From Leucobacter sp. 7(1) (GTDB lineage: Bacteria; Actinomycetota; Actinomycetes; Actinomycetales; Microbacteriaceae): a stretch of 64,000 bases of DNA. How positions within the stretch are numbered: the first letter of the stretch is position 1; each line of letters begins with the position of its first letter. The stretch covers positions 1-64,000 of the forward strand of contig NZ_FUID01000004.1 in the NCBI RefSeq assembly GCF_900163635.1. The letters are read 5' to 3'. Both the position numbers and the translations under genes were made by a program. Under the pieces are notes generated by a model that worked only from the letters and a program-made list of their open reading frames with translations, did not search any database and was not told where the DNA came from. Of the stretch, positions 7,899 through 22,154 are shown piece after piece.

Positions 7899-7901
7899 GT
7901 T

Positions 7902-7946
7902 CTGAGCGTATCGCTTATCGATACTATCGACAAGCGATACGCTCAG
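7902..7946 (-). promoter_or_regulatory. Leaderless promoter inside a 15-base inverted repeat (operator)
   Basis: Perfect 15-base arms (7902-7916 and 7932-7946, core GAGCGTATCGCTT) flank a 15-base centre containing TATCGATA. Read on the minus strand the arms embed a -35 TTGTCG (7928-7933), a 17-base spacer and a -10 TACGCT (7905-7910) that ends six bases before the DUF2975 ATG. A repressor bound here would cover the whole promoter. It also follows the stop of the hydrolase gene, so it could double as a terminator, although no T tract is present. Confidence 0.65.
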
Positions 7947-7963
7947 GATCGAGCCCTGCGCTC

Positions 7964-9100
7964 TCAGATCTTGTGCCGGAACCAGTCCCCGAGACGGGCA
8001 CCAGCGACCGACATGTAGTCGTAACTGCAGTGCAGGGACCCCGCGCCGTCGTAAATGTCCACGGTCACGTCGTCGGTGGTGAGCGCCGCAATAAAGCGAC
8101 GTGCCCCGGCGATGTCCATGATGATGTCGGCGGTGCCGTGCATCACATACACGGGCACTGTGATCTTGTCAGCGACACCATCAAGGGTGAACTTCGCGAG
8201 CTTCGCTCGCGCCTCCGCATCGTCCTTCGACCCGGTTAACCACTGCAGCTGCTGCTGGAGTGGCGGGTAGAACTCGTAGAAGTCGGTCAAGATACTCCAC
8301 GTGCCGCACCACGCGGCCACCGCCTTAACGCGTGGCTCGAAGGCGGCGGCGCGCGGCGCGTAGTACCCGCCAAAACTGACGCCCGCGAGGCCCAAGCGAT
8401 CCGGGTCGACGTCGCTGCGCTGCTCCAGGAAATCGAGGATAGCGGCGACCGGGACCTCGTAGTCCGGACGGCTGTACATCTCCTTGAATCGGAGCGAGCT
8501 GCCACGTCCCGGGGTGTCAACCATCACCACGTTCATGTCGCGAGCCGGGAACTCGGTCCCGCCGAGGAAATACAGCTCCTCTGCCCAGGAGTCCGCGCCC
8601 CCGAGAAACAGCACGGTGGGGCGAGGGAGGCCGCTCGCGTCCGGCCGCACGATGTACCCCTCCATCTCTTGCCCCTCAAATGGGACGGCAATCTGCTCGA
8701 TCAGGCCGTCGCTGAGCGCAACGCCAGCGCGGAAATTCTCGCGCCCCGCGTCATACGCCTTGGTGCGGCGGGGGTCAGCGGAATCGAGGAAAAACTCGGA
8801 GTGGCGGAAATAGCTCATCGAGCGGAAAAACGCGCGACGTGCGGTGGTGCGGTCCCCCCGGTCGAGTGCCGATCGAGCGGCATCGCCGATCTCGTGACCG
8901 GTGCGACTCCACTCGCGATGCCAGACCTCGCCATCGGTGCTCTCCGTGCCGATGCGCGCGGCAGTCCGCGCACACTCGAATAGATCAGCACCGCCGACGG
9001 CGACCTGTGACAACAAGCGCATCGTCTGGAGCGACCAGTCTTCATCTTGAGGGAATAGTTCTATGAGCGAGAGGGCGTCGCCGGTGGATTGTGTGGTCAT
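7964..9100 (-). CDS. Alpha/beta-hydrolase, FrsA / 2,6-dihydroxypseudooxynicotine hydrolase-like
   Basis: 378 residues. An all-helical N-terminal part (about 1-130) precedes an alpha/beta-hydrolase core (about 135-378), the layout of the nicotine-pathway C-C hydrolase of Paenarthrobacter and of FrsA-like proteins. The nucleophile motif GVSFGG gives Ser242, the acid lies in HGTADIIMD (Asp325 or Asp329), and His357 in SLHCSYDY is the base. I use the ATG at 9100 because GGAG sits six to seven bases before it; the in-frame TTG at 9112 lacks such a site. It is the last gene of the minus-strand catabolic operon, 66 bases after the amidohydrolase. Likely role: hydrolysis of a C-C, ester or amide bond in a ring-opened intermediate (inference). 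Confidence 0.85.
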   Translation of the reverse strand: MTTQSTGDALSLIELFPQDEDWSLQTMRLLSQVAVGGADLFECARTAARIGTESTDGEVWHREWSRTGHEIGDAARSALDRGDRTTARRAFFRSMSYFRHSEFFLDSADPRRTKAYDAGRENFRAGVALSDGLIEQIAVPFEGQEMEGYIVRPDASGLPRPTVLFLGGADSWAEELYFLGGTEFPARDMNVVMVDTPGRGSSLRFKEMYSRPDYEVPVAAILDFLEQRSDVDPDRLGLAGVSFGGYYAPRAAAFEPRVKAVAAWCGTWSILTDFYEFYPPLQQQLQWLTGSKDDAEARAKLAKFTLDGVADKITVPVYVMHGTADIIMDIAGARRFIAALTTDDVTVDIYDGAGSLHCSYDYMSVAGARLGDWFRHKI

Positions 9101-9166
9101 GTGCGTCTCCAACTGTGTGGTGAGATATGGACTCGGTGAGGTGAGGCCGGGGTGAGTGCGCTCACG

Positions 9167-10369
9167 CTAGTGCGCGCCAGATTCGAGGTGTTCCATGCGC
9201 GGGGTGACGTGCGCCGCCTGGGCGGCTTGGGGCGTGTTGCGGCTGCGCAGTGTGCGTACGGTGCCCCCGGTAATCACCGCGGAGATCCCGGGGATGTCAC
9301 CGATCGCGAGGGCCCCGAGGGCATCTGATTGGGTGGAGCCCCAGGGGGCGTCCAACACGACGAGGTCCGCGGCCCTGCCAGGAGCGATCACCCCCGCGGG
9401 CAGATTCCAGACTCGGGCATTGTTGCCCGTCGCGGCGGCCCACACTTGTTCGGGAGGCACGCTTGTGAGCGACGACAGCTCGGCTACGGTCTTCAGCACT
9501 CCAAGCGGCATCACCCCGGTGCCCGTGGGGGTGTCGGAGCCAATCACGATCCGGTCAATGGCTCCGCGTTCCGCCGCGCGCTCGAGGATCCGAACGGCAG
9601 AACTCAGGTTCCCTGCCTGTACCAGCTGGAGCGCCAGCTCGGTCTCATCCATGATCCGGTCGACTCCGTCGGCATCGAGGGAGGTGGGGCCCCCATTCAC
9701 GTGACCGCACACGTCAGGTGCCAGGATACGCAGGTGTTCTGGGGTGATGGGCTGACTGCCCGGGATGCTCGCACCGCCTGAGTGGCACATCACGGTGATG
9801 CCGTACTGTTGCGCCCAGCGCACCTGCGGGAGTCCGTCGGCTGGATCCCGGTACCGGCCGAAGCCGAACTTTGCAAGCACGATCCCCGCCTCCTGCAGCT
9901 CGACGAAATCCTGCTCGTGCAGGGTCGGTTCCAGCACAACCGCACCGGCATGCACCGTCATCCCGTTCGGATTGAAATTCGCAAAGCACTCCTTGGCGGC
10001 GATCGCGAGGGCCTTCACGCCCCGGGCCGAGCTGGGTCGCCCGGGCGCGTGAATCTCCCCGGGCGACACCACACTCGTGATCCCGCCGTGCACATAGCTC
10101 GCGAGAAAGTCGACGGTTTTCTGCCGGGGCGTGTAGTCGCCGAGGACCACGTGGCAGTGGGAGTCGATCAACCCGGGGGCCACGGTCGTCCCGGCCGCGT
10201 CCACCCGAACATCGGACTGTTCCACGTCGCCACCCAGCTCAGCGGCTTGCCCCACAGCCGTGATCAGCCCGTCGCGCACGATGATCGTGTCCGCCCCGGC
10301 AATGACGGGGCTGCGCCAGTCGCCGGAAAGGATCGTCCCGGCACCGGTAACGGCAAGCGACCCCGTCAC
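9167..10369 (-). CDS. Enamidase-like amidohydrolase
   Basis: 400 residues, amidohydrolase superfamily. The whole length resembles what I recall of the Eubacterium barkeri enamidase, which opens the 6-oxo-tetrahydronicotinate ring in nicotinate fermentation; shared blocks include APGLIDSHCHV, GDYTPRQKTVDF, GHVNGGPTS, GSDTPTGTG and GDIPGISAV. Metal ligands expected: HxH at His71/His73, bridging residue Lys167 (LAKFGFG), His196 (MCHSGG), His223 and Asp279. It starts with GTG at 10369, overlapping the DUF1185 stop by four bases (GTGA). Likely reaction is hydrolysis of a cyclic enamide, lactam or related C-N bond. Its presence beside an extradiol dioxygenase is unusual. Alternative: another cyclic-amide or imine hydrolase. 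Confidence 0.85.
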   Translation of the reverse strand: MTGSLAVTGAGTILSGDWRSPVIAGADTIIVRDGLITAVGQAAELGGDVEQSDVRVDAAGTTVAPGLIDSHCHVVLGDYTPRQKTVDFLASYVHGGITSVVSPGEIHAPGRPSSARGVKALAIAAKECFANFNPNGMTVHAGAVVLEPTLHEQDFVELQEAGIVLAKFGFGRYRDPADGLPQVRWAQQYGITVMCHSGGASIPGSQPITPEHLRILAPDVCGHVNGGPTSLDADGVDRIMDETELALQLVQAGNLSSAVRILERAAERGAIDRIVIGSDTPTGTGVMPLGVLKTVAELSSLTSVPPEQVWAAATGNNARVWNLPAGVIAPGRAADLVVLDAPWGSTQSDALGALAIGDIPGISAVITGGTVRTLRSRNTPQAAQAAHVTPRMEHLESGAH

Positions 10370-10950
10370 AACCCCTTCTCCCTCGTTTCGGCGAGCGACA
10401 TCCCGCCGACCCGCGCGTTGATCCTGCCGCGGTTGGTGACCGCGGCGATCACCACGATCTCGTCAGGGTGCGGCGCGTCCGGGACCCGTACCTCGAGTGC
10501 GTCATAGTGTGATCGGACCCAGACCTCATCTTTGAACGCCGTCGGCACGTCAATCACGGTGCCCGCTCCCCCGGGTTTGGTGACCGAGGTGATCCAGGCC
10601 TCGCCGCCGCCGATTGCCGCACGGAATGCGTCGCCAAACACCGCGGTGAGGGCCGCGTTGACGTGCTCCTGTTCGCCGTCCGAACCCACAATCCCGGCTT
10701 TCCCGTAGCTCTCGACGGGGGCGCCGAGCAGGCGGAGGGCTTCGGCACCCAGCTGCGTGCCGATCTCCGCAGAGTTTTCAATCAGCTCAGTGAGATCAGC
10801 GACGTATCCGCCCCCGGCGTACGGGTTGCGGAGCACGACGCACACGGCAACCTTGCGCAGGGGGCCACCAGCATCGGTCGTTCCTGCGGCCGTCCGAATC
10901 TCCTCGACATGTGCGAAGGACTTTCGAATCTCAAGCGCGGATGCGGTCAT
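10366..10950 (-). CDS. Amino acid synthesis family protein (DUF1185)
   Basis: 194 residues, starting MTASALEIRKSFAHVEEIRT. Recognisable family blocks are VAVCVVLRNPYAGGG near residue 40, the GAPVESYGKAGIVG block near 80, GGGEAW near 115 and VWVRSHYDALEVRVPDAPHPDEIVV near 150. Solved members have a chorismate-mutase-like fold; no reaction is established, and the family name is historical. The ATG at 10950 overlaps the preceding aldolase stop by four bases, and its own stop overlaps the next GTG, so it is tightly coupled within the catabolic operon. I infer a role on a ring-opened or tautomeric intermediate rather than in amino acid synthesis. Confidence 0.82.
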   Translation of the reverse strand: MTASALEIRKSFAHVEEIRTAAGTTDAGGPLRKVAVCVVLRNPYAGGGYVADLTELIENSAEIGTQLGAEALRLLGAPVESYGKAGIVGSDGEQEHVNAALTAVFGDAFRAAIGGGEAWITSVTKPGGAGTVIDVPTAFKDEVWVRSHYDALEVRVPDAPHPDEIVVIAAVTNRGRINARVGGMSLAETREKGL

Positions 10951-11999
10951 CGTGCACCCGCCGGGTTGTCGGCTGTCGCTGCACGGGTCCCGAGACGCGC
11001 CGCGATCTCCGCACTGATCTGCTGGTACCGCACGACGTGCTCGGAGGTCGAGTCCCAGTGGCGCTGCGGCACAAGGTCCTCGGTGTAGGGCACACGGCTT
11101 TGACCCACGTGGATATAGCCGGCCTGGTTGACCCGGATCTTCTCGAGGGGGATGTTGTACTTCGCGAACTCGAAGAAGTCCTGGCCCACGATGAATGGTT
11201 CGTGCGCCCACCGCAACCGCTCGGTAAGCCAGCGCGCGTCCTCGGTGCGCCCCTGTTGGAGCGCATCGCGCAGGTGCAGCACGGGGTCCGGCCCCATCGC
11301 GGTTGTCGAGGACCACGCCATACCGACAAGTTCTTCGCCGTACATCTCCCAGGCCGGAAACCAGTCGGTTTCAATCGGCATCAGCGGGAACCGGGTTCCG
11401 GTGTGCGCCATGTCGTTGTGGTAGCGGAAGCCCACGGAAGCCCCACCAGCGTATTTCACCGCGACAACCTGCGGCAGTTGCACGAGCGTGCGGTACACGG
11501 TGCGCGGGATGATGCCCCCGAACGCCGCGGTGTTGTCGTACACCACCATCGCCATCTCGGGCACGGCCTCCGCAACGTCTCGATAGAACTTCTCCATGAC
11601 CGGGGCGACCATTTCGCCCCACATGGGACGTCCCAACAGGGTGCCGGTGGCCCCGAGCTCCGCCAAGAACCGCGTGCGTGCGATCGTTTCGCGCGTGCTC
11701 AGTGTGGTGGCGCCAACAAAGATGGGGAAGTCGGGGTCCACCGCGTGGGCGGTCTGAACGGTGCACTCAGCAAACGCTTTCCACTCGTCGAGTGTGAGGG
11801 TGGCCATCTCGCCGAGCGTGCCGTTCAACGCAATCGCATCGACGCCATCCGCAATGAGCTGTCGAATCATCCGCTCGCTCTCGACGAGATCGACGGTGTT
11901 CTGCGCTTCCACCTGATCTGCACCCGGGAGCGCGGGGGTGGGCGGATAGGACATCACGCCGCGCAAGTCGCGGCCGGTGATCCGGGGAAGGGTACTCAT
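10947..11999 (-). CDS. Dihydrodipicolinate synthase superfamily hydratase-aldolase (NahE-like)
   Basis: 350 residues, class I pyruvate-aldolase barrel. The GTLGEMATLT motif at residues 60-69 and the KYNIPLEKIRVNQAGY block near residue 308 are like the trans-o-hydroxybenzylidenepyruvate hydratase-aldolases of naphthalene degradation rather than DapA. Tyr154 (VVYDN) and the Schiff-base Lys182 (VVAVKYAGG) are present. In such pathways the enzyme splits a ring-fission product into pyruvate and an aldehyde. It lies between the ring-cleaving dioxygenase (72 bases upstream) and DUF1185 (four-base overlap). The predicted role here is retro-aldol cleavage of the LigAB product or a derivative; the true substrate is unknown. 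Confidence 0.87.
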   Translation of the reverse strand: MSTLPRITGRDLRGVMSYPPTPALPGADQVEAQNTVDLVESERMIRQLIADGVDAIALNGTLGEMATLTLDEWKAFAECTVQTAHAVDPDFPIFVGATTLSTRETIARTRFLAELGATGTLLGRPMWGEMVAPVMEKFYRDVAEAVPEMAMVVYDNTAAFGGIIPRTVYRTLVQLPQVVAVKYAGGASVGFRYHNDMAHTGTRFPLMPIETDWFPAWEMYGEELVGMAWSSTTAMGPDPVLHLRDALQQGRTEDARWLTERLRWAHEPFIVGQDFFEFAKYNIPLEKIRVNQAGYIHVGQSRVPYTEDLVPQRHWDSTSEHVVRYQQISAEIAARLGTRAATADNPAGAR

Positions 12000-12071
12000 G
12001 GTGTCCTGCTCTCTCTGAGGTGAATGGGAACCGCGAATGCGGCACCCGGGAAAGGGTGAAGCATCGGGTCA

Positions 12072-12917
12072 CTACCCGGGAAGACCCGGTGTCGCCGCCG
12101 CGACGGCGGTCCCAGTGAGCCACTCAGGAACGGGCTCGTAGGCCAGCACCTCGAAGGGTGCCCCGATGGCCCCGGCGGCCGCGATCCAGGTACGCACCTC
12201 GTGCGCACCGTTCCCGGCAGCATCGATTTCCTGCGGGGAGTAACTCTTCAACTGCGCAGGATCACCGCTTTCGATACGAGCGATGAAGTCGCGGTCGAAC
12301 TCCTCGTTCACTTGACCGGCTTCGGGCAGGCCAACCCAGTGCGAGAGGCCGCCGGTACCGAGGACCACAACGCGTTCAACCTCTGTCTGCGCCTCCACCG
12401 CGCGCCGGATCATCTCCCCGAACTCATAGCTGCGCTTGGCCGTGGGCCAGGGCGGGTTGACGCCGTTCACGATGATGGGCACGAGCGGGTATCGGGATGC
12501 GGGATCCAGGTGTTTCAGGGGGACGCAGAAGTTCTCGTCGAAGTCGAGTCCGCCCTCGACGAGCGCCGGATCGAACTCGTGCGCGATCGCGTACTCGTAA
12601 ATGTGGCGGCCAAGCGCACCGTTGCCCGGGTACTGGTGCTGCGGAACCTTGAGAAACTCGGCCATCTCGGGGGTCACAGGGCCCAGGTAAGAATCCGCCG
12701 TGGCGATAGCGAAAGCGGGAAGATTTCCAAAATTGAAGTTCGTGAAGTGTTCCACTGAGATCGCGACAATGGCGTCGGGCTGAAGCGCCTCGATGCGCCG
12801 GCTCGCCTCCCGGTAGGCAGCCTCGATGATCTCCCGCTTTCGTGGCTCGGCCCGTTCGGGCCAGCCAGTCACGCCCGGTGAATGTGACGCAGCAAACGCG
12901 CCGACGATTGTTCCCAT
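12072..12917 (-). CDS. LigB-like class III extradiol dioxygenase, catalytic subunit
   Basis: 281 residues, homologous to the beta subunit of protocatechuate 4,5-dioxygenase. Expected Fe(II) ligands are His12 (ASHSP), His57 (SVEHF) and Glu240 (NGAHEVRTW), and the catalytic base is His193 (LSHW). The second catalytic His, normally in a DHG..xPL motif, is replaced here: residues 127-134 read DENFCVPL, so Glu or Asn stands in its place. The start codon overlaps the LigA stop by one base (TAATG), implying coupled synthesis of the two subunits. The predicted reaction is oxygenative cleavage next to a hydroxyl pair of an aromatic acid. The altered acid residue hints at an atypical substrate such as an aminophenol or hydroxypyridine. 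Confidence 0.88.
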   Translation of the reverse strand: MGTIVGAFAASHSPGVTGWPERAEPRKREIIEAAYREASRRIEALQPDAIVAISVEHFTNFNFGNLPAFAIATADSYLGPVTPEMAEFLKVPQHQYPGNGALGRHIYEYAIAHEFDPALVEGGLDFDENFCVPLKHLDPASRYPLVPIIVNGVNPPWPTAKRSYEFGEMIRRAVEAQTEVERVVVLGTGGLSHWVGLPEAGQVNEEFDRDFIARIESGDPAQLKSYSPQEIDAAGNGAHEVRTWIAAAGAIGAPFEVLAYEPVPEWLTGTAVAAATPGLPG

Positions 12918-13168
12918 TAGTTCTTCTCCTCACGAATTTGCGCGTAGTAGTCCGCGCGGTCGACCTGCAGTTGGATGGCGCAGAAGTAGATCAGGTAGGG
13001 GTTTGCGCCGATCTCATGAAGCTTCTGGAAGTCGAGTTCGAGCATCGCCTCACGGGCTTCACCGGTCACGCCATACGCGTCGAGCGTCGGGTACGGGTTC
13101 TTGCGAAAACGCAGTGCGAGATCAGGATCTTTACGGATGTCCCACAACAATTGGTGCAGCTTGTACAC
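12917..13168 (-). CDS. LigA-like extradiol dioxygenase small subunit
   Basis: 83 residues, helical, starting with GTG (MYKLHQLLWDIRKDPDLALR). The FRKNPYPTLDAYGVTGEARE block is typical of the alpha subunit of protocatechuate 4,5-dioxygenase, which caps the active site of LigB. At 83 residues it is well short of the Sphingobium subunit (about 139). The binding site GAGGAGG lies five bases before the GTG. It is the first gene of the minus-strand operon, with a 5' leader of about 160 bases back to the promoter at 13336-13365. As LigA contributes to substrate binding, the shortening may reflect a different ring substrate. Confidence 0.85.
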   Translation of the reverse strand: MYKLHQLLWDIRKDPDLALRFRKNPYPTLDAYGVTGEAREAMLELDFQKLHEIGANPYLIYFCAIQLQVDRADYYAQIREEKN

Positions 13169-13335
13169 GTGAACCTCCTCGTTTGTCGAGGGCGTCGCGC
13201 CACGACCCCCTCACGGGCACCGCCCGGAAGTGCTCCGGAAACGGTCTGCGCGTGCCGTGAGTTCCTGGACGGGGCGTGTCCCCGGAGGTCGGGCCAAGTT
13301 GACTCGGGTTCCGCACGGCATCGGGCAGTGAGGTC

Positions 13336-13365
13336 AGCCTAGGAACAAATGTCGACAAAGATCAA
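13336..13365 (-). promoter_or_regulatory. Promoter of the ligAB operon with embedded TGTCGACA operator
   Basis: Minus strand: -35 TTGATC (13360-13365), 18-base spacer, -10 TAGGCT (13336-13341). The spacer contains the palindrome TGTCGACA (13350-13357), two bases after the -35 and eight before the -10. A repressor bound there would block RNA polymerase. The same layout occurs in front of the TRAP operon. Confidence 0.75.
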
Positions 13366-13516
13366 CGACCCGAGGCAAGTTCCAGGGAGGATCCGGAAAT
13401 TCAGCGCTTTGATGCCGGGGAAGGCGACAGCAATGACGCACGCTCAACGTCGGAACATCTTTGTTGATCGGGGAAAAGTCAGAACGCGCTCAACTGACAC
13501 ACAAGCACTGTCACAA

Positions 13517-13524
13517 TGTCGACA
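13517..13524. promoter_or_regulatory. TGTCGACA operator upstream of the GntR gene
   Basis: The palindrome in context AATGTCGACAAT lies 83 bases before the GntR ATG, with an AT-rich TATAGC hexamer just downstream that could be the -10. Autoregulation by the GntR protein is the simplest reading. Confidence 0.6.
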
Positions 13525-13606
13525 ATATAGCCGCAATGGCTGACGTGCGGGGCGACTCTCGATACACTCATTGGACACCGCCCAGCGAGTCAGGAGGTCC
13601 CCCGCA

Positions 13607-14311
13607 ATGGATCGTGTTGCCCCCGTGAGCTCGGATGAGCCCGATCGAAACTCCGCCTCGCTTCCCGGAACACTCAGGCGCGCGATCGCACTCGGTGAGT
13701 ACCCTCCGGGCGTGAAGCTCGTTGAGCGCGAGCTCGCGGACCGGTACGGCGTGGGCCGCACAGCCGTGCGGGACGCGATCCGCCACCTGGCCGCGGAGCG
13801 CATTCTCGTGCTCACTGAGAATCGCGGAGCGCGGGTGCGGGAACTGAACTACGCGGAGGCGGCGGACATTTATCAGGTCAGGAGCGTTCTTGAGGGGCTC
13901 GCCGGCGAGCTGTTCGCGGTGCGGGGCACGGCACGCGAACGAGTCGAGTTCGCGGCATCTCTCGATCCGATCCGCGCCGCACACGAGGGTGCGGATCTCG
14001 CGGAAATCCTCATCACCAGCGAGAGTTTCTATGCCCACCTCCTCGGTGGCTCGGGCAACGCAGAACTACACAACCTTGTCGAGGGGTTGCACGTGCGGAT
14101 CAATCAGATTCGGCGCGTGTCCCTGTCCATGCCGGAACGCAAGGTTCCGACGCTCGATGCACTCCAGCGCATCGTCGACGCAGTAGTTGTCGGAGACGCG
14201 GCCGGCGCCAAGCAGGCGTGCGTTGACCATGTGCATGCGTCTGCGGCGGCAACGCTGCCTGTGCTCGCGGCGCAGGCGCGCGGTGCGGTACTGCAGTCCA
14301 GCCGAAACTAG
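13607..14311 (+). CDS. GntR family regulator, FCD (FadR/VanR-like) subfamily
   Basis: 234 residues. The N-terminal winged helix (about 12-75) contains GVKLVERELADRYGVGRTAV, and the C-terminal FCD effector domain contains the metal-binding pattern with DIYQVRSVLEGLAG and a late HVHASA. The start at 13607 is set by AGGAGG nine bases upstream; a TTG at 13571 has no such site. It lies between the two catabolic operons and divergent to ligA. FCD regulators normally repress catabolic genes and are released by a carboxylate metabolite, and they favour short palindromes, so the four TGTCGACA sites are its probable targets. Its stop shares the bases CTAG with the LysR stop on the other strand. Confidence 0.92.
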   Translation: MDRVAPVSSDEPDRNSASLPGTLRRAIALGEYPPGVKLVERELADRYGVGRTAVRDAIRHLAAERILVLTENRGARVRELNYAEAADIYQVRSVLEGLAGELFAVRGTARERVEFAASLDPIRAAHEGADLAEILITSESFYAHLLGGSGNAELHNLVEGLHVRINQIRRVSLSMPERKVPTLDALQRIVDAVVVGDAAGAKQACVDHVHASAAATLPVLAAQARGAVLQSSRN

Positions 14312-15243
14312 GCCCCCGCCGCGCGAGCTCCCGGTGGCCCCGGAGTCAGAGCCGGTCGAACCAGGGAGCGGAGCGCGGCCCGTGCCGCGCGAGCGGAGGG
14401 GGTGAGCGCGCGTCCGCGCAGCCAGGCGCACGAGACAGGCGTGGGGTACGGGGCCGGGTCGAGTGGCCGCGCCACGACGGGGAGCCCCTCATACGACAGA
14501 TCCGACACTGGGCGCTGGATAACGAGCGAGTAGCCGATACCCCGCGCAACAAGGGAGCGGACAACTTCAAAGTCTTGAAAGCGAAAGGCCGGCCTGGGGG
14601 CAATTCCATGCGCGGCGAAATACACTCGCACATTCTCGGGGCCGGGCGAGGCGTCAAGCAAGATCAACGGTTCCGCGCGGAGCTGTTCCGGGCGCACGCG
14701 TTCTTCGGTGGCGAGTGGGCTATCGGCGGCGAGGATCACATGCATGGTGTCCTGGCTCAGTTCCTCTGTGTCAATGTCGCCATCTGGCTGAATGCCATAT
14801 CCCACCGCGAGCTCGATTTCCCCGGCACGAAGCAACCCGCCAAGCTCCTCTGCGCGCCCGGTGCGCACGTCCAAGCGAACCCCCGGAAACCGGGACCTGA
14901 ACGCGTCGAACAGTGTCGGCATGATCGTCGGTCCCAAAGACGTGAAACAGCCGATCCCGAGGCGCCCGGTGAGCTGGGTCCCAGAAAGCGACGTGGCTAT
15001 CCGCCCCGCACTCTCCATCATCTCGGTGCTGAGCTCAAACAGTTGTGTTCCGTAGGGCGTGAGGGCCACCCCTTTTGCCTTCTGCCGGGTGAATAGTCGG
15101 TACCCAAGCGCGGTCTCAAGATCGGAGACTGCAGCAGCGAGCGCCGAGCGGGATACCCGTTCCTTCTCAGCGGCGGCGCTGATGCTGCCGTGCTCAGCGG
15201 CAGCGCGAAAGTACTCGATCTGACGGAGTGTGAAGTTCAACAT
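14308..15243 (-). CDS. LysR family transcriptional regulator
   Basis: 311 residues. Winged helix at residues 1-60 (LRQIEYFRAAAEHGSISAAA; SRSALAAAVSDLE), then a periplasmic-binding-protein-like effector domain (about 90-300). I choose the ATG at 15243, preceded by GGAGG seven bases upstream, over an in-frame ATG at 15279. It is divergent to the TRAP operon, the normal arrangement for a LysR activator and its target, with a 324-base gap between the two starts. It is convergent with GntR and overlaps it by four bases. Probably an additional, pathway-specific activator for the TRAP/monooxygenase operon. Confidence 0.9.
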   Translation of the reverse strand: MLNFTLRQIEYFRAAAEHGSISAAAEKERVSRSALAAAVSDLETALGYRLFTRQKAKGVALTPYGTQLFELSTEMMESAGRIATSLSGTQLTGRLGIGCFTSLGPTIMPTLFDAFRSRFPGVRLDVRTGRAEELGGLLRAGEIELAVGYGIQPDGDIDTEELSQDTMHVILAADSPLATEERVRPEQLRAEPLILLDASPGPENVRVYFAAHGIAPRPAFRFQDFEVVRSLVARGIGYSLVIQRPVSDLSYEGLPVVARPLDPAPYPTPVSCAWLRGRALTPSARAARAALRSLVRPALTPGPPGARAAGA

Positions 15244-15300
15244 GTGTGGGCCTCCGGGGTCGCGGACCAGTGCGGTCATCCTGCCACAGCCCTCCGATAA

Positions 15301-15308
15301 TGTCGACA
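15301..15308. promoter_or_regulatory. TGTCGACA operator in the LysR/TRAP divergent region
   Basis: Third copy of the palindrome, in context TAATGTCGACAGTT, 58 bases upstream of the LysR ATG and 170 bases before the fourth copy. It could repress lysR or cooperate with the downstream site. The rest of the 324-base region shows no other clear element except the TRAP promoter. Confidence 0.55.
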
Positions 15309-15470
15309 GTTGAGGGCTGATCTCGTGTCCTCAGTGAAAGGAACCGCGGAGTGCTGCCCTTACTCAAGCGCGGAATCGTTGACGTCCGTACCGAAATCCT
15401 CCACGCTGACACGCAACGTGCGCTTTCCCACCATTGGATGACGGGATTCCCCTCAGCTGAGTGAAAGCGC

Positions 15471-15500
15471 TTGAAGAATGTCGACATTCGGGACTAGCCT
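15471..15500 (+). promoter_or_regulatory. Promoter of the TRAP/monooxygenase operon with embedded TGTCGACA operator
   Basis: -35 TTGAAG (15471-15476), 18-base spacer, -10 TAGCCT (15495-15500). TGTCGACA (15479-15486) starts two bases after the -35 and ends eight bases before the -10, exactly as in the ligAB promoter on the other strand. Confidence 0.75.
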
Positions 15501-15567
15501 CGCTGCCAAGCGAGTGCGGAATCTGACCGCTCGCGAGCGCCGCCCGCTCTGTTCAAAGGAGAACACA

Positions 15568-16602
15568 ATGATGCATCGACGACGCAATTTCGCGCTCACC
15601 CTGATGGGCGTGACCGCTCTGACGCTTGCGGGGTGCGCGAGTGCCCCGAATGACGCCGAGTCCGGAGGTGACACAATCACCCTCAGCTATGCATACTTCG
15701 CACCGGCGGTGTCGTTCCCCTCGGTCCAAATGGCCGAGTGGGCGCGGTTGCTCACGGAGCGTACCGATGGCCAGGTTGAGGTCGACCTCTTCTACGGCGG
15801 CACCCTGCTGGGCTCCGGGGACATCTACGAGGGGGTGAGTCAGGGTGTTGCCGATGTGGGCCTCGACTCCCCCGCGTATGACACCAGCCGGTTCCCGCTC
15901 TCCAGCGTGATCGCGGTCCCCCTCGGGCTGAGCGACCCCGTCGCTGCGTCCCACACGTTCCTCGATCTGCTGCTTGAGTTCGAACCCGAGGAGTACGATG
16001 ATTTTCAGATCATTACCGCGTTCACCACCGAGGCAGCCTACCTGCAGACCACGAAGCCTGTTACCACGCGCGACGAGGCCAAGGGGATGACGTTGCGCGG
16101 CTCCGCGGCCACAATCCCCGTCTTGGAACAGCTCGGGATCAGCCCGGTCGGCCTGCCCATGAACGAGGTCAGCGAGCAGCTCAGTACCGGAGTGATCGAC
16201 GGGTACGCAGCGTCGCGTGAGGTGCTCAAGGGCTTTGGCCTCGCCGAGCAAGTGTCGGCAATTACGGACTTCCCGCTCGGGATCGGGAACAGCTTTGTTG
16301 CGGTGATGGACCAGGCCAAGTTCGATGCGCTCCCCGAGAACGTGAAGGAGGTGATCCTTGAGCTCCGTGAAGAGATGGCGGAGTTCGCGGGCTCGCAGCA
16401 CCTCGCCGAAATCGCTGAGTCCGAGGAACTCGCGGAGAGCGAAGGTGTGGAAACTGTGACGGTTGCTGGCGCTGACGCCCCGGCGTGGCAAGCGATCCTC
16501 GATGAGCAGGCGGAAGCCTGGGTGCGTGACAACGCGGGCGCCCCCTTCGACGCTCGCGCGGTCCTCGAACGCACGCGCGAGCTCGCCGCCGAGAACGAGT
16601 GA
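15568..16602 (+). CDS. TRAP transporter solute-binding lipoprotein (DctP family)
   Basis: 344 residues; captures a carboxylate outside the membrane and delivers it to the Q-M permease. A signal peptide ends in the lipobox LAGC with Cys23, so the mature protein is lipid-anchored, as expected in a Gram-positive. DctP landmarks include the VDLFYGGTLLGSGDIYEGV strand-helix and the region GMTLRGSAATIPVLEQLGISP, where an Arg normally binds the substrate carboxylate (here Arg in TLRGS). AAAGGAG lies six bases before the ATG at 15568. First gene of the four-gene operon; its stop overlaps the dctQ GTG by four bases. The ligand is inferred to be the aromatic acid used by the island. Confidence 0.92.
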   Translation: MMHRRRNFALTLMGVTALTLAGCASAPNDAESGGDTITLSYAYFAPAVSFPSVQMAEWARLLTERTDGQVEVDLFYGGTLLGSGDIYEGVSQGVADVGLDSPAYDTSRFPLSSVIAVPLGLSDPVAASHTFLDLLLEFEPEEYDDFQIITAFTTEAAYLQTTKPVTTRDEAKGMTLRGSAATIPVLEQLGISPVGLPMNEVSEQLSTGVIDGYAASREVLKGFGLAEQVSAITDFPLGIGNSFVAVMDQAKFDALPENVKEVILELREEMAEFAGSQHLAEIAESEELAESEGVETVTVAGADAPAWQAILDEQAEAWVRDNAGAPFDARAVLERTRELAAENE

Positions 16603-17135
16603 GCCCCGTCATGCGGGGACTCACCCGGGTGATCCGCGGGATCACGCTGCTCAGCGTCACGGTGTCTGGCGTGATCCTCAACGTGGTCATGCTGCTGCTC
16701 GTGGCGAACGTGGTGTTGCGTCTGCTGAATCGCCCTATCCTCGGGCTCTACGAGGTGCTCACCGCGTGCACGGTCGTGTTGCTCGGGCTTAGCCTCGGAG
16801 ACTCCCAGCGGGAGAAGCAGCACGTCGCCATCGACCTTGTCACCGCACGTTTCCCGCCGCGGGTGCAGACGGGCCTCGTCGCGCTCACCACGGCGCTCTC
16901 AGTGATCGTGTTCACCATGATCGCCGTAGCGTTGCTGCGCTACGCCGCACTTCAGGTGCAGGCCGCGACCGCGTCAGAGATCCTCCGGATCCCCACGTGG
17001 CCGGCACTCGCCGCACTGATCTTCGGGATCTTCCTGCTCGTGAGTGTGCTCGCGGTGGACTTGATTCGCAGCACCCAGCGGGCGCTTCGCCCGGCACACC
17101 GCACCGCTGAGCCTGACTGGAAGGAGGCGTGGTGA
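16599..17135 (+). CDS. TRAP transporter small permease subunit (DctQ family)
   Basis: 178 residues with four membrane spans (about 18-38, 52-72, 92-115, 132-155). The LGLSLGDSQREKQHVAIDLV block around residue 62 contains the H-V-x-I/V-D feature seen in this family. Starts with GTG in a GTGA overlap with the binding-protein stop, and overlaps the large subunit gene the same way, so the three TRAP proteins are translationally linked. Works with DctM as the membrane part of an ion-driven importer. Confidence 0.9.
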   Translation: MSPVMRGLTRVIRGITLLSVTVSGVILNVVMLLLVANVVLRLLNRPILGLYEVLTACTVVLLGLSLGDSQREKQHVAIDLVTARFPPRVQTGLVALTTALSVIVFTMIAVALLRYAALQVQAATASEILRIPTWPALAALIFGIFLLVSVLAVDLIRSTQRALRPAHRTAEPDWKEAW

Positions 17136-18421
17136 GCGCACAATTGATTGCCCTAGCGGGGATCCTGCTCTTTTTTGTGCTGATCTCTCTCCGGATGCCC
17201 ATCGCGTATGCAATGGCGGGCGTCGGGTTGCTCGGAATGATCGTGCTCTCGGGCACCGAGTCCGCGATGCAACTGATCGCAGGGGACGTCTTTCGCCAGT
17301 TCAGTACTCTGAGCATGGCCGTGATCCCCCTCTTCATCTTCATGGGCCAGATCGTGTTCCACACCGGAATGAGCACAAAGCTATTCCACGCCGCCTACAC
17401 CTGGTTCGGCGCGATCCCAGGCGGCCTGGCTGCGACGACGCTCGTGTCGAGCGCACTCTTCTCCGCAGTTTCAGGCTCCAATTCAGCGGGCACCGCCACG
17501 ATCGGGGCCATTGTCCTCCCCGAAATGAAGAAGTACGGGTATCACAAGCGCTTTGCGAGCGGCACCGTCGCGATTGGCGGGACGCTGGGCATCCTCATCC
17601 CACCATCCACCGCGCTGATCATCGTGTCTGTGCAGGCCGAGCAGTCAATTGCCGCACTGTTCCGAGCCGCACTGCTCCCCGGATTCCTGATTACCGCGCT
17701 GCTCGTGATCACCGCTCTGCTCAGAGTACGGATCACCCCGGGTCTCGCGCCGCGCGGCCCAGGGGCGAGCTGGGGCGAGCGATTCCGCTCGCTCAGCGGC
17801 ACTGTCGAGATCGTGGTGCTCTTTGGCGTGTCGGTCGTCGGCATGCTGCTCGGTTGGTTCTCCCCCACTGAGGCGGCGGGGGTCGGCGCCGGGGGCGCAG
17901 TCCTCATCGGCGTGGTGACCCGGCAACTCACCTGGGAGAAGTTTCGCCGCGCCACGCTGGAGACACTCCGGATCACGGCGTTTGTGGTCATGCTGATCGT
18001 CTCAGCCGTGATCTTCGGCCGGTTCCTGACGATCACGCGGCTGCCCTTCGACCTCGCGAGTTGGGCGGCGGATATCCCCGTCGCCCCCATCGTTGTGCTC
18101 TTGCTTGTGCTCGGAATCTACCTGCTCGGCGGTGCGCTGATGGACGGACTCGGGTTTCTCGTGCTGAGCATTCCGCTCTTCTACCCGCTCCTCGCGGCGC
18201 TCGGCTACGACCTTGTCTGGGCAACGATCATTGTGGTGCTTGTCACCACGTTTGGCGCGGTCACACCACCCGTGGGCGTGAACGCGTTCATCGTGGCGGG
18301 TATCTCGCGCGACGTCAGCATCATCGACGTCTTCCGCGGTGTGCTGCCCTACTACATCCCCTACGCGGTAGTTATCGCCGCGTTCATTGCTTGGCCGGGG
18401 CTCATCACCTTCGCAGCCTGA
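17132..18421 (+). CDS. TRAP transporter large permease subunit (DctM family)
   Basis: 429 residues, about 12 spans, the ion-coupled transport subunit. Family blocks include the RMPIAYAMAGVGLLG start, SGSNSAGTATIGAIVLPEM near residue 112 and the late FGAVTPPVGVNAFIVAG repeat, which matches the two-fold internal symmetry of these proteins. A GTG at 17129 also exists, but AAGGAGG sits only one base before it; the second GTG at 17132 has four-base spacing and a GTGA overlap with dctQ, so I start there. The monooxygenase gene follows after 53 bases with no terminator. Confidence 0.92.
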   Translation: MSAQLIALAGILLFFVLISLRMPIAYAMAGVGLLGMIVLSGTESAMQLIAGDVFRQFSTLSMAVIPLFIFMGQIVFHTGMSTKLFHAAYTWFGAIPGGLAATTLVSSALFSAVSGSNSAGTATIGAIVLPEMKKYGYHKRFASGTVAIGGTLGILIPPSTALIIVSVQAEQSIAALFRAALLPGFLITALLVITALLRVRITPGLAPRGPGASWGERFRSLSGTVEIVVLFGVSVVGMLLGWFSPTEAAGVGAGGAVLIGVVTRQLTWEKFRRATLETLRITAFVVMLIVSAVIFGRFLTITRLPFDLASWAADIPVAPIVVLLLVLGIYLLGGALMDGLGFLVLSIPLFYPLLAALGYDLVWATIIVVLVTTFGAVTPPVGVNAFIVAGISRDVSIIDVFRGVLPYYIPYAVVIAAFIAWPGLITFAA

Positions 18422-18474
18422 GCACGGCCCCATCTCGCCGGCGTCCCTGTCGGCCCGAACAAGGAAGCAGAATC

Positions 18475-20379
18475 ATGCAGTTTCACCACCACGGATATGT
18501 CTCCGGTGACCCCCGACTTGAACCTGCCAGCGGCATCGGACTCACCCGCAGCCCTGAACTCCCCGCGGAGATCGACGTACTTATCGTGGGCTCCGGGCCG
18601 GCCGGAATTATCGCGACCGCACAGCTCGCCCAGTTTCCGGGCGTGGTCACCCGCACGATTGAGCGCCGGGATGGTCGCCTGCAGCAAGGCCAAGCGGACG
18701 GCATCCAGGCGCGGAGTCTGGAAACCTTTCAAGCCTTTGGATTCGCGGAGCAGGTGCGGCAAGAAGCGTTTCAGATCACCGAAATGGCCTTTTGGAAGCC
18801 AAACCCGGACGCCCTCAGCGAGGTCTCGCGCGCGGCAGTCACCATCGATGACGAGCACGGCATGAGCGAGTTCCCCCACGTCGCGGTCAACCAGGCCCGC
18901 GTCATCGACTACTTCGCGGATTTCGCCCGGCGATCCCCCGCCCGCGGGGACATCGACTACGGCTATGAGCTCGTGGACCTGGAAGTACTCGACCAGGGCG
19001 ACTACCCGATCCGGGTCGTGCTCCGCCACGAATCACCGGATCTCCCGGGGAAACTTCGCACAGTGCACGCGAAGTATGTTGTCGGCGCCGACGGGGCGCC
19101 TTCGAGCGTGCGCCACGCGATGGGCGCCAAACTCGTGGGCGACCGCTCACTCCATGCGTGGGGGGTCGCAGACGTGCTGGCGATCACGGATTTCCCCGAC
19201 GTCCGGAAGAAGTGCGCGATCCAGTCGCGGGACGGGGGCAACATCCTGCTGATCCCGCGCGAGGGAAATTACCTGTTCCGAATGTACGTGGACCTGGGCG
19301 AAGTCGGCCCCGAGGACCGCGGCGCCATCCGGCAGACCCCGCTCGAAGAGATCCTGGATCGCGCCCGCGCGATCATGCACCCGTACACACTAGAGGTGCG
19401 TGACGTGCCCTGGCATAGCGTCTACGAGGTAGCGCACCGCCTCGCCGATCGCTTCGACGACGCGGCGACCTCTCCCGACGGCACGCCACGCGTCTTCCTC
19501 ACCGGGGACGCCTGCCACACGCACAGCGCCAAGGCTGGCCAGGGCATGAACGTGTCGATCCAGGACGGCTGGAATATCGGGTGGAAACTCGGCTACGTTG
19601 TGTCGGGACGCAGTCCTGAAGTCCTGCTCGAGAGCTACGCGGCCGAGCGCCGTGTGATCGCGCAGGACCTCATCACCTTCGACCGCGAGTGGTCCACGAT
19701 GATGGCGAAGAAGCCACACGAATTCGCGTCGCCCTCCGAGCTTGAAGACTTCTACGTCGCCACAGCGGAGTTTCCGTTCGGTTTCATGACGCAGTACCGG
19801 GACCCGCTCCTCACCGGCCCCAACCGGCATCAGGCACTCGCCGCAGGGTTCCCACTGGGAAAGCGCTTCAAGTCCGCGCTCACCACACGCGTCGCCGACG
19901 GCGTGAGCCTCCACCTCGGCCACCACCATCGGGCCGACGGTCGCTTTCGGATCTACGCCTTTGCTGACGCTCAGGGTGACAATCTCACCGCGTGGGCACG
20001 GTGGATGCGCGACTCACCCGAGTCGCCTGTGCAGCGCAGCCGGGTTGCCGGGACGGACCTGGACGCCGTGCTCGATATCAAAGTGATCTACCCCCAGGAG
20101 CATCACGCGGTTGATCTGGGCGCGGTTCCCGACCTCTTCCTGCCCCGCTCCGGACCGTACGGGCTGATCGACTACGAGAAGGTCTACGCCGCGCAGCCGG
20201 GCGCGGACATTTTCGCGGAGCGCGGGATCGACCGCGGAGGAGTCGCGGTGCTTGTCCGGCCTGATCAGTACGTGTCGCACATCGTGCCGCTGAACCGTCC
20301 CGAGGAGCTTGCCACGTTCCTCCGGACCGTCCTCACGGACCGCGCAGCACAGCCCGCCTCCGTGGGTGCGGCCGTCTGA
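18475..20379 (+). CDS. FAD-dependent aromatic hydroxylase (MobA / phenol 2-monooxygenase-like)
   Basis: 634 residues, class A flavin monooxygenase. FAD dinucleotide motif GSGPAG is at 39-44, the DG motif (GADG) at 204-207 and the second FAD motif GDACHTHSAKAGQGMN at 344-359. A thioredoxin-like C-terminal domain (about 450-634) places it with 3-hydroxybenzoate 4-hydroxylase (about 639 residues) and phenol hydroxylase. AAGGA precedes the ATG at 18475. It is last in the TRAP operon, so uptake and hydroxylation are co-expressed. It should add a hydroxyl next to an existing one, making the diol that LigAB cleaves. The true ring, benzoate or hydroxypyridine type, cannot be read from the sequence. 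Confidence 0.9.
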   Translation: MQFHHHGYVSGDPRLEPASGIGLTRSPELPAEIDVLIVGSGPAGIIATAQLAQFPGVVTRTIERRDGRLQQGQADGIQARSLETFQAFGFAEQVRQEAFQITEMAFWKPNPDALSEVSRAAVTIDDEHGMSEFPHVAVNQARVIDYFADFARRSPARGDIDYGYELVDLEVLDQGDYPIRVVLRHESPDLPGKLRTVHAKYVVGADGAPSSVRHAMGAKLVGDRSLHAWGVADVLAITDFPDVRKKCAIQSRDGGNILLIPREGNYLFRMYVDLGEVGPEDRGAIRQTPLEEILDRARAIMHPYTLEVRDVPWHSVYEVAHRLADRFDDAATSPDGTPRVFLTGDACHTHSAKAGQGMNVSIQDGWNIGWKLGYVVSGRSPEVLLESYAAERRVIAQDLITFDREWSTMMAKKPHEFASPSELEDFYVATAEFPFGFMTQYRDPLLTGPNRHQALAAGFPLGKRFKSALTTRVADGVSLHLGHHHRADGRFRIYAFADAQGDNLTAWARWMRDSPESPVQRSRVAGTDLDAVLDIKVIYPQEHHAVDLGAVPDLFLPRSGPYGLIDYEKVYAAQPGADIFAERGIDRGGVAVLVRPDQYVSHIVPLNRPEELATFLRTVLTDRAAQPASVGAAV

Positions 20380-20389
20380 GACGGGGCCC

Positions 20390-21604
20390 TCAGGCCGCAG
20401 GGGGCGCTGCGGCCTCGAAGCGAGGGGGGAGCGGGAGATTCCCCACCCCGGACACGCGGACCTCACTGAGCCCCTGCCAGGCGGCGGCCTGAGCCAATAG
20501 CGCGCGGGCGGCTTCGCCGGCTCGAGCCGGGGCGCCGGGTTCTTGCCAGGCAGCCTGGACACGGAGCGCGCCGCCCGCTCGATCGGCTTTCAGATCGATC
20601 CGCCCGGCCAGCACGCCGCCGACGAGCAGCGGGAGGCAGTAGTACCCGAACTGCCGTTGGGCCTGCGGCGTGTAGATCTCGATCCGGTAGTGGAAGTCGA
20701 ACATTCGCTCGGCGCGTGGCCGGAACCAGACCACCGGATCAAACGGCGTGAGGAGTGCGTCCGGAGTGAGGCGGGAAGGCACGCGAGCGTCACGGTGCAG
20801 CCAGGCCTCCTGCGGCTTCCCGGTACGGTCGTCCCAGCCCCGGACCCGCACGGGCACGAGCTCCCCGAGGTCTTCCAGAGCGCGCACGGAGACACGCGCC
20901 TCGGCAGTTTTGAGCCGATGATAGTCGGCAAGATCGTGTAGCGTCGCCACACCCAGTGAGCGAGCGGCCTGAGCAACGAGTCTGCGCTGTGCCGCCGCCC
21001 GGCTGGGCGGGCTCACGAGGAGCTCCGGTGCCAACACCTGCTCCGCGAGCGCGTAGCGCCGCTGGAATCCCTCGCGCCCGGCCGAAACGACCTCACCCGT
21101 GGCGAACAGCAGCTCGACAGCGTGCTTCGTTTCGCTCCAGTCCCACCACGGGCCCCGGACAGCACGAGGGCCGTCTTCGAGGTCCCGGACCAGGCTCGGC
21201 CCGCCATCGCCGAGCTGTTCGCGCACCCGGGCGAGGGCCGGAGCGAGCTCTGTGGCCCGACCGGTCCGCTCAGCGCGCTCACGGAAGTCAGCCATCCGCC
21301 AGGTGAAGAGCGGGCGGTCGCCGACAGGGATGAAGGCGGCCTCGTGTGCCCAGTACTCAGTGAACTCGCCACTGTGCCACAGCAGCCGGTCGAGCGCACC
21401 GGGATCGTACACACCGTGGCGGGAGAAGACGGGTAAGTAGTGGCTCCGCGCAAATACGTTGACGGAGTCGATCTGCAGCACGTGCAGGCGCGACAGCGCC
21501 GGATCGAACGGCCGGCGCTGTCGCAACCGCGGAGTCTGCGTGAACCCCTGCGCCGCGAGCGCGACGCGGCGGGCCTCAGCGGCGCTCAGCGTATCGCGAC
21601 TCAT
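20390..21604 (-). CDS. Winged-helix DNA glycosylase of the AlkX/YcaQ (HTH_42) family
   Basis: 404 residues of three tandem winged helices. Members unhook DNA interstrand crosslinks. The catalytic Q-x-D motif that marks the AlkX branch (AlkZ proteins have Q-x-Q) is present as LQIDSV, residues 43-48, with the preceding LSRLHV helix. Other family features are EYWAHEAAFIP near residue 83 and the LTPFDPVVWFRPRAERMFDF block near residue 292. It starts 22 bases after the ndk stop on the same strand and is unrelated to the island. It has no obvious binding site and may be translated from the ndk message. Confidence 0.85.
   Translation of the reverse strand: MSRDTLSAAEARRVALAAQGFTQTPRLRQRRPFDPALSRLHVLQIDSVNVFARSHYLPVFSRHGVYDPGALDRLLWHSGEFTEYWAHEAAFIPVGDRPLFTWRMADFRERAERTGRATELAPALARVREQLGDGGPSLVRDLEDGPRAVRGPWWDWSETKHAVELLFATGEVVSAGREGFQRRYALAEQVLAPELLVSPPSRAAAQRRLVAQAARSLGVATLHDLADYHRLKTAEARVSVRALEDLGELVPVRVRGWDDRTGKPQEAWLHRDARVPSRLTPDALLTPFDPVVWFRPRAERMFDFHYRIEIYTPQAQRQFGYYCLPLLVGGVLAGRIDLKADRAGGALRVQAAWQEPGAPARAGEAARALLAQAAAWQGLSEVRVSGVGNLPLPPRFEAAAPPAA
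20392..20415. terminator. Hairpin at the convergent end of the monooxygenase operon
   Basis: Nine-base perfect arms (AGGCCGCAG / CTGCGGCCT) with a six-base loop, starting 12 bases after the monooxygenase stop and lying inside the last codons of the convergent AlkX-like gene. No T tract; likely terminator for the plus-strand operon. Confidence 0.45.
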
Positions 21605-21625
21605 CGACAGCGTTGGTGTGGGGGC

Positions 21626-22042: not shown

Positions 22043-22154
22043 GCAGCTCCTCGTGTGCGAAAGTGTCGTGGGCGCACCGCGCCCCACCGTCCAGTCTAGT
22101 CGTGGCCTCGTCGCCAAGCCGGACCACGTGCGGCGGATGCCCTACGCTGAGGCT

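Follow-up and report, generated by a model that had tools for sequence, protein, structure and literature searches.

We identified, in a 64,000-nt stretch of the Leucobacter sp. 7(1) genome (contig NZ_FUID01000004.1; hereafter the window, whose positions serve as coordinates), an island of 12 genes within 7964-20379 that likely degrades a bicyclic nitrogen heterocycle through a diol shared with orthologous clusters of other actinobacteria. We lean slightly towards the kynurenate family as the substrate class, and within it our tentative candidate is xanthurenic acid, for which the island would represent a kit for uptake and ring-by-ring breakdown. The order of the enzymes is fairly well supported; the substrate we infer from protein families and gene context. 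A preliminary description of this DNA had proposed two tightly coupled operons with GntR and LysR regulators and had named the protein families, and open frames, hidden Markov models (HMMs) and structure matches leave hardly any doubt that this was correct. The order of events that it proposed, from import and hydroxylation to LigAB cleavage, an aldolase reaction and nitrogen removal, is also sensible in our judgement. In the following, L-numbers denote the loci and G-numbers the genomes compared, G000 (3.92 Mb, 106 contigs) being the genome of the window.

All 12 genes are uninterrupted open frames, arranged as two coupled operons flanking the two regulators. The minus-strand operon, with overlaps or gaps of at most 72 bases, comprises in transcription order ligA, ligB and the genes for a hydratase-aldolase, a DUF1185 protein, an enamidase homologue and an FrsA-like hydrolase. 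The plus-strand operon, with gaps of at most 53 bases, consists of dctP, dctQ and dctM of a TRAP transporter, followed by the gene for a MobA-like flavin hydroxylase.

The ring-cleaving enzyme is an extradiol dioxygenase with a LigA-type small subunit (12917-13168, minus strand; PF07746, 34.2 bits versus a cut-off of 25.3), which begins at a GTG at 13168, and a LigB-type catalytic subunit (12072-12917, minus strand; PF02900, 129.6 bits). LigB residues H12, H57, H193 and E240 were invariant in eight aligned sequences including that of the window, as expected for a class III extradiol enzyme; we take H12, H57 and E240 to be the iron ligands and H193 the catalytic histidine. The adjoining hydratase-aldolase of the PhdJ/NahE type (10947-11999, minus strand; DHDPS family, PF00701) matched PhdJ best among solved structures (6dan, 246 bits; 6dao, 199 bits). 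Its scores against PhdJ and hydroxybenzylidenepyruvate enzymes were 198-246 bits, as compared with 59 for the next DHDPS entry, and K182, by analogy the presumed Schiff-base lysine, and Y154 were invariant in six sequences including that of the window, in agreement with an arylidenepyruvate hydratase-aldolase. NahE/PhdJ-type enzymes split aryl-CH=CH-CO-COO-, a structure that results from extradiol cleavage of a bicyclic 1,2-diol beside the ring fusion. The type of aldolase therefore suggests an arylidenepyruvate intermediate, and thus a bicyclic substrate that is first attacked at its benzene ring.

These data bear on the possibility that the MobA-like hydroxylase turns 3-hydroxybenzoate into protocatechuate, which LigAB then cleaves ahead of an unusual lower route. 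The LigAB family itself would suit such a function, as would the 3-hydroxybenzoate residues kept in MobA (see below), but LigB scored far below the curated protocatechuate/gallate cut-offs (94.6 bits versus 837 for NF009912, the fused protocatechuate 4,5-dioxygenase, and 100.2 versus 317 for NF009903). Moreover, LigAB and aldolase orthologues accompany Rieske and short-chain dehydrogenase/reductase (SDR) genes in all 19 other loci, protocatechuate would leave no evident role for an arylidenepyruvate aldolase or an enamidase, and an intradiol dioxygenase pair is encoded elsewhere in G000. We therefore consider protocatechuate quite improbable, and the earlier view that the island does not follow the standard protocatechuate 4,5 route is upheld by the LigB scores and the intradiol pair. 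The accompanying statement that LigC, LigI, LigJ and LigK are absent holds for the island, among whose genes HMMs recognised none of these types; the remaining genome lay outside that search. The intradiol matches (L138 and L139, G000:C88:79781-80727) adjoin each other and are possibly the subunits of a protocatechuate 3,4-dioxygenase.

A search for the same operon in other genomes, which the preliminary description had recommended, yielded orthologous clusters at 19 other actinobacterial loci. A contig scan returned 41 loci, 12 of which (L002-L013) carried LigA, the aldolase and a LigB of 62-88% identity; the remaining 29, with LigB of 28-46%, were set aside, apart from a look at L021 and L014. 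The 12 loci and L046, L047, L079, L105, L106, L107 and L109 make up the 19 distinct loci (L108 repeats L012). We found that every one of the 19 carries Rieske alpha and beta subunits, a small ferredoxin-like frame and an SDR, and that, of the 20 loci, the window alone lacks Rieske alpha/beta and SDR genes. A search of G000 at E <= 1e-5, which had no positive control, returned no Rieske alpha homologue. The best solved match of the Rieske alpha subunit of L002 was naphthalene dioxygenase (2b1x, 390 bits), and the best NCBIfam models for the SDR of L003 were cis-dihydrodiol dehydrogenases, below cut-off. The Rieske alpha match lies in a single frame in 18 loci; in L003 (Salinibacterium sp. PAMC 21357) the match (11972-13280) is divided among three frames, none of them with an internal stop, as a result of draft errors or decay. 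In L079 the Rieske genes (48-60%) are located about 10 kb off on the other strand.

LigB, the aldolase, the enamidase homologue, the DUF1185 protein and the FrsA-like hydrolase of the window were 72-91% identical to those of L002-L004. From this identity the same intermediates and the same diol are expected, whether the latter arises from a Rieske oxygenase and SDR or from ortho-hydroxylation by MobA. In a tree of LigB and the aldolase, the window grouped with L002, L003 and L004 (100/100), so that the change from Rieske to MobA looks recent. The preliminary description had suggested a comparison with the dioxygenase and hydrolase of the mimosine (pyd) route; by analogy with that route, a monocyclic hydroxypyridine carboxylate would be hydroxylated and then cleaved by LigAB. 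PydA does belong to PF02900, according to the available text of PMC7356986, and nitrogen-handling enzymes are present in the island. However, the relatives' SDR and naphthalene-dioxygenase-like Rieske alpha subunit, together with the arylidenepyruvate aldolase, which would be superfluous, point to a bicyclic substrate, and cleavage of the nitrogen ring by LigAB would presumably leave the enamidase without a cyclic enamide. This reading thus appears very improbable.

Some further features of the relatives are worth recording. L004, which carries a Rieske-type cluster, is from Candidatus Leucobacter sulfamidivorax, a sulfonamide-degrading actinobacterium according to the title of PMC6868719. Genes for an amino acid permease, an aldehyde dehydrogenase and a class III aminotransferase stand in the same order beside the clusters of L002 (4398-8881) and L004 (3215-7597), which belong to two genera. 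In L021, from a Burkholderiales metagenome-assembled genome, a 38% aldolase and a 37% LigB lie near each other (8693-10807), with a 39% GntR in the locus; no enamidase or FrsA match was found in L021, which perhaps represents a related pathway without nitrogen.

The enamidase homologue, an amidohydrolase (9167-10369, minus strand; Amidohydro_1), aligned with 2vun over almost its full length (395 bits). Residues H71, H73, K167, H196, H223 and D279, presumed to be metal residues, were invariant in seven sequences including that of the window, as expected of an enamidase. The conserved enamidase predicts activity on a cyclic N-acyl enamine, namely an oxo-pyridine ring that remains after the benzene ring has been removed. 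An orthologue was present in eight of nine cluster genomes tested; the miss was G891, a 320-contig assembly in which the cluster is cut short by the end of a 17.8 kb contig. The DUF1185 protein (10366-10950, minus strand; AA_synth/DUF1185, PF06684, 203.9 bits; solved matches 2qtp and 3byq) is encoded next to the enamidase wherever both genes were found. We considered whether it might be a RidA-like enamine deaminase and found no support for this, as the structures matched by its AlphaFold model (pLDDT, the model's own confidence score, 76.6) at E <= 0.001 were all of DUF1185 proteins (three chains among 295 matches at E <= 10). A role as replacement of the NahD isomerase seems less likely, as adjacency to the enamidase argues for a later step. 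In G652, a DUF1185-enamidase pair (L132, 7931-9693) lies far from LigAB, and ABC-transporter-like genes were seen nearby by eye.

The last gene of the minus-strand operon encodes an FrsA-like alpha/beta hydrolase (7964-9100; PF06500, 42.8 bits), for which the start at 9100 is more likely than a TTG at 9112. Its best solved match was 2,6-dihydroxypseudooxynicotine (DHPON) hydrolase (2jbw, 82 bits). S242, D325 and H357 were invariant in five sequences including that of the window; the alignment to 2jbw covers the serine and ends before the histidine. The similarity and the Ser-Asp-His triad would, judged from sequence, fit a DHPON-type C-C hydrolase. An FrsA orthologue (69-88%) was found in each of the 14 loci or genomes lacking a molybdenum hydroxylase in the cluster (the window, L002-L010, L079, G453, G1018 and G1149, where the search for this enzyme was confined to the cluster) and in none of the six with one (G960, G900, G891, G832, G1148 and G652, the last having only a 30% FrsA relative). 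Such complementarity would have a chance probability of 2.6e-5 if the loci were independent, which they are not, as three pairs are more than 94% identical; the tree of LigB and the aldolase needs only two changes between the two types, and a single change is also compatible with its well-supported branches.

The gene for the large subunit of the molybdenum hydroxylase directly follows the SDR gene in all six genomes, and in G1148 (= L011), G960, G900 and G832 its medium subunit gene and an ECH-family gene adjoin the DUF1185-enamidase pair. Since FrsA and the molybdenum hydroxylase are mutually exclusive across the loci, both may act to remove the aldehyde made by the aldolase. We think it fairly probable that FrsA is an aldehyde-removing hydrolase; in loci of the molybdenum type, the aldehyde is perhaps oxidised by the molybdenum enzyme, with the ECH-family protein then decarboxylating the product. 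The best NCBIfam model for the molybdenum hydroxylase was glyceraldehyde dehydrogenase alpha (676 bits versus a cut-off of 790), closely followed by carbon monoxide dehydrogenase models, all below cut-off. This best model and the occurrence of the enzyme where FrsA is missing make a quinaldate 4-oxidoreductase feeding kynurenate a less likely reading.

Based on these assignments, we propose the following pathway. The TRAP transporter would import a hydroxylated quinoline carboxylate, for which xanthurenic acid (8-hydroxykynurenic acid) is the most likely candidate, and the MobA-like protein, as a xanthurenate 7-hydroxylase, would convert this acid to 7,8-dihydroxykynurenate. LigAB would cut between C8 and C8a to give 5-(3-carboxy-3-oxopropenyl)-4,6-dihydroxypicolinate, a cleavage that would make C8a the lactam carbonyl of the remaining pyridone. 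The hydratase-aldolase would then yield pyruvate and 5-formyl-4,6-dihydroxypicolinate. The FrsA-like hydrolase, by analogy with DHPON hydrolase, may serve as a retro-Claisen deformylase releasing formate, a reaction that should be easy as the formyl group would be flanked by two ring carbonyls. Finally, the enamidase, perhaps helped by the DUF1185 protein, would open the lactam of 4,6-dihydroxypicolinate, which has an enamidase-compatible N-acyl-enamine form, to ammonia and 2,4-dioxoadipate. The carbon balance of this scheme would be C10 = pyruvate C3 + formate C1 + dioxoadipate C6. In the relatives, the Rieske oxygenase and SDR would make 7,8-dihydroxykynurenate from kynurenate and so converge with the route of the window.

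A quinoline substrate was chosen because it fits both the PhdJ-type aldolase and the enamidase. Kynurenate degradation involves kynurenate 7,8-oxygenase, dihydrodiol dehydrogenase and an 8,8a-dioxygenase yielding 5-(3-carboxy-3-oxopropenyl)-4,6-dihydroxypicolinate, and we favour the kynurenate family because the relatives carry these enzyme types, an oxygenase, a diol dehydrogenase and an extradiol enzyme. All three types occur in the 19 relatives; in the window the trio is incomplete, MobA replacing the first two. The three enzymes have, to our knowledge, been known only as activities since the 1960s. We found no gene cluster for kynurenate or xanthurenate degradation described in the literature searched, which comprised titles and abstract openings, mostly without subscription journals. 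It is conceivable, although we would not call it probable, that the island is the first gene set for xanthurenic acid mineralisation, that the related clusters provide the first genes for the kynurenate oxygenase, dihydrodiol dehydrogenase and 8,8a-dioxygenase, and that aldolase, deformylase or molybdenum oxidase, and enamidase form a new lower route. The available text of PMC5610271 describes the fate of kynurenic acid as not known in yeast and higher eukaryotes, mentions a pathway suggested in Pseudomonas fluorescens, and cites Taniuchi and Hayaishi 1963 for the enzymatic formation of 7,8-dihydroxykynurenic acid.

The same architecture might instead serve another bicyclic substrate, such as an 8-hydroxylated 2-quinolone, 8-hydroxyquinaldate or another benzo-fused nitrogen heterocycle, with 3-formyl-2,6-dihydroxypyridine or similar as the aldolase product. 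The Rieske enzyme and the aldolase indicate a bicyclic compound and nothing narrower, and the solved structure nearest to FrsA acts on a 3-acyl-2,6-dihydroxypyridine. We nevertheless hold such substrates to be somewhat unlikely, since the TRAP transporter suggests an acidic compound and the N-acyl enamine needed by the enamidase should be better provided by 4,6-dihydroxypicolinate than by the imide-like 2,6-dihydroxypyridine.

The entry steps to xanthurenate degradation would be provided by the plus-strand operon. Its transporter consists of the solute-binding protein DctP (15568-16602; PF03480), which probably starts at 15568, just after a purine-rich ribosome-binding-like stretch (open frame from 15478), the small permease DctQ (16599-17135), and the large permease DctM (17129-18421; TIGR00786, 282 bits versus a cut-off of 268). 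DctQ, which had no match in the NCBIfam search made, was assigned from its position and because, in cluster loci, 34-40% homologues are encoded between DctP and DctM. DctM homologues (44-60%) were found near Rieske-type clusters in L007-L010, L105 and L109. The MobA-like flavin hydroxylase (18475-20379, plus strand; FAD_binding_3 and Phe_hydrox_dim), which begins at 18475, scored 906 bits with NF006144 and 593 bits with 3-hydroxybenzoate hydroxylase (2dkh). Only two of the 20 loci, the window and L003, have a MobA in the cluster, that of L003 coming after gntR, and neither locus has an uninterrupted Rieske alpha gene.

We built a tree of 32 MobA sequences, namely those of the window, of L003, of a paralogue from the same genome as the window, and 29 more from the loci listed. 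In it, the paralogue on C58 was the sister of the window MobA (100/99) and the L003 MobA lay elsewhere, so that we rejected a common ancestry of the window and L003 proteins apart from other MobA. Their end branches were long (0.67 for the window and 0.71 for L003, median 0.14), as was that of an ordinary sequence, L076 (0.66), and, of the columns in which the 30 others are at least 93% constant, 41 are changed in the window MobA, which thus departs from the ordinary rate of MobA-like proteins. Positions 137 and 232 are Ala/Ala in the window and Thr/Ile in L003, as compared with Ile (28/30) and Met (30/30) in the others; L003 also has an arginine at the position of 2dkh H135. The tree positions and branch lengths suggest two separate recruitments of MobA, perhaps with altered selection. 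The paralogue (L078, G000:C58:58000-77500; 8954-10846) lies beside an IclR-like gene, as seen by eye, and a gene for a thiamine pyrophosphate (TPP) enzyme that is 34% identical to that of L003; TPP enzymes were also found in cluster loci L003, L009, L010, L012, L105, L106, L107 and L109.

Between the operons lie the genes for a GntR/FCD regulator (13571-14311, plus strand; GntR and FCD HMMs) and a LysR regulator (14308-15279, minus strand; LysR HMM). GntR homologues of 58-67% were found in L002, L003 and L004, with a LysR homologue of 61% beside GntR in L004. The palindrome TGTCGACA occurs five times in the window, as compared with 0.67 expected from base composition, and four copies lie upstream of the two operons. 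Two, at 13350-13357 and 13517-13524, are located between ligA and gntR and represent proposed GntR operators; one, at 15301-15308, precedes the TRAP-MobA operon, and one, at 15479-15486, the likely DctP start. The fifth, at 46559, is outside the island. The stricter form WTGTCGACAW occurs three times versus 0.24 expected, a count reached by 1 of 100 shuffles. L002, L003 and L004, which share GntR, have exactly two TGTCGACA copies each, between or at the edge of the gntR homology and ligA, and no more in about 20.8 kb; one copy in L002 and one in L003 fall inside the longest possible gntR frame. Across 23 further cluster loci, including second stretches of the same genomes, WTGTCGACAW was seen only in L107, about 9 kb from ligA, and a bare TGTCGACA once each in L011 and L105. 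The five same-genus controls, all lacking the island, comprised L113 (discussed below), L111 and L112 with one bare TGTCGACA each, and L078 and L110 with none. The motif alone is not specific; the evidence lies in its placement.

Because TGTCGACA stands upstream of both operons, these quite probably form one regulon, and we propose that GntR is the regulator binding it at both. The placement also bears on whether the operons have nothing to do with each other, a damaged cluster without its former Rieske genes lying beside a TRAP-MobA operon of other function. MobA is common and is sister to the genome's own paralogue, as would then be expected, but the shared palindrome, the TRAP homologues near clusters in L007-L010, L105 and L109, the MobA in the L003 cluster and the uninterrupted frames of the island render this improbable.

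Several observations weigh against the assignment to xanthurenate. The window MobA keeps D75, H135, K247 and Y271 in its alignment to 2dkh, which we take to be the 3-hydroxybenzoate-binding residues, and it could be a 3-hydroxybenzoate hydroxylase. MobA-like genes are common, being present in 123 of 396 genomes of the order, and the window MobA was not the sister of the L003 MobA in the 32-sequence tree; with its interrupted Rieske alpha gene, L003 cannot serve as proof of two working entry routes in one strain. As for the palindrome, WTGTCGACAW is also found twice in the 19.8 kb of L113, a same-genus locus that lacks the island. The flanking genes read or scanned included none that we recognised as belonging to the kynurenine pathway, and no gene of the island accounts for what becomes of 2,4-dioxoadipate. 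Nor does the scheme account for the role of DUF1185, and most of the enzymes would also suit other benzo-fused nitrogen heterocycles.

The island as a whole (7949-20406, 12.46 kb) looks like an insertion and is absent from one close relative. A homologue of its right-hand flank gene was present in 41 of 41 same-genus genomes (that of the window included), and flank regions were fetched from four of these (L110-L113). L110, from G015, the closest same-genus genome examined, has the nearest copy of that gene (86%). In a blastn comparison of 6401-22200, the flanks 6401-7948 and 20407-22099 aligned to L110 at about 82%, being 69 bases apart there, and 7949-20406 had no counterpart. No left-hand flank gene was detected next to the right-hand one in L111-L113, so that these loci are uninformative on insertion. 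No direct repeat of at least 7 bases was found between the island edges. At E <= 1e-60, a search for orthologous LigB gave 1 genome among 60 relatives, 1 among 396 of the order, 3 among 396 of the phylum and 7 among 394 of the class, counts that each include the window's own genome and come from overlapping samples; G000 has one LigB-family match in its whole genome. In L079, the cluster is borne on a plasmid (Rhodococcus sp. USK13, NZ_CP069241.1) with IS4/transposase genes downstream, which suggests mobility.

Kynurenic and xanthurenic acids derive from tryptophan and are active in the host. Their removal by bacteria has an old biochemistry, and the cluster offers a named, expressible candidate for each step. 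The presence of a Rieske system or of MobA would predict which acid a strain eats, kynurenate or xanthurenate, respectively. The swap between an alpha/beta hydrolase and a molybdenum hydroxylase is unusual and may mark one step.

When compared with known systems, the relatives share with Pseudomonas kynurenate degradation the order of ring dioxygenase, diol dehydrogenase and extradiol cleavage beside the nitrogen ring. In contrast, the later steps there reduce the side chain that an aldolase would split here, and the window would begin with a hydroxylated substrate and MobA. The upper pathway of naphthalene and phenanthrene (NahE, PhdJ) has the same series of Rieske dioxygenase, dihydrodiol dehydrogenase, extradiol enzyme and hydratase-aldolase, but here LigAB stands in for NahC, no NahD-type isomerase was recognised, and a nitrogen-removing lower part is added. 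The presumed metal ligands of the enamidase of Eubacterium barkeri nicotinate fermentation (2vun) are conserved in the window save for a Glu to Lys change, although the homologue sits in an aerobic aromatic cluster and has another predicted ring substrate. DHPON hydrolase (2jbw) and the FrsA-like protein are both alpha/beta hydrolases with a matching N-terminal part and the Ser, Asp and His of the triad, but their similarity is weak (82 bits), and FrsA is proposed to remove a formyl rather than a longer acyl group. The 4-hydroxypyridine (kpi) pathway also uses a flavin hydroxylase followed by oxidative opening of a nitrogen aromatic ring, and PydA of mimosine degradation is a PF02900 protein; in both, however, the nitrogen ring and not a benzo ring is cleaved, and the available text of PMC7356986 describes no set of aldolase, enamidase and FrsA. 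TgnF of trigonelline and HcdD of 7-hydroxycoumarin degradation are DUF1185 relatives in heterocycle catabolism that work alongside other pathway enzymes, and TgnF is reported to stimulate an aldehyde oxidation (available text of PMC7913881).

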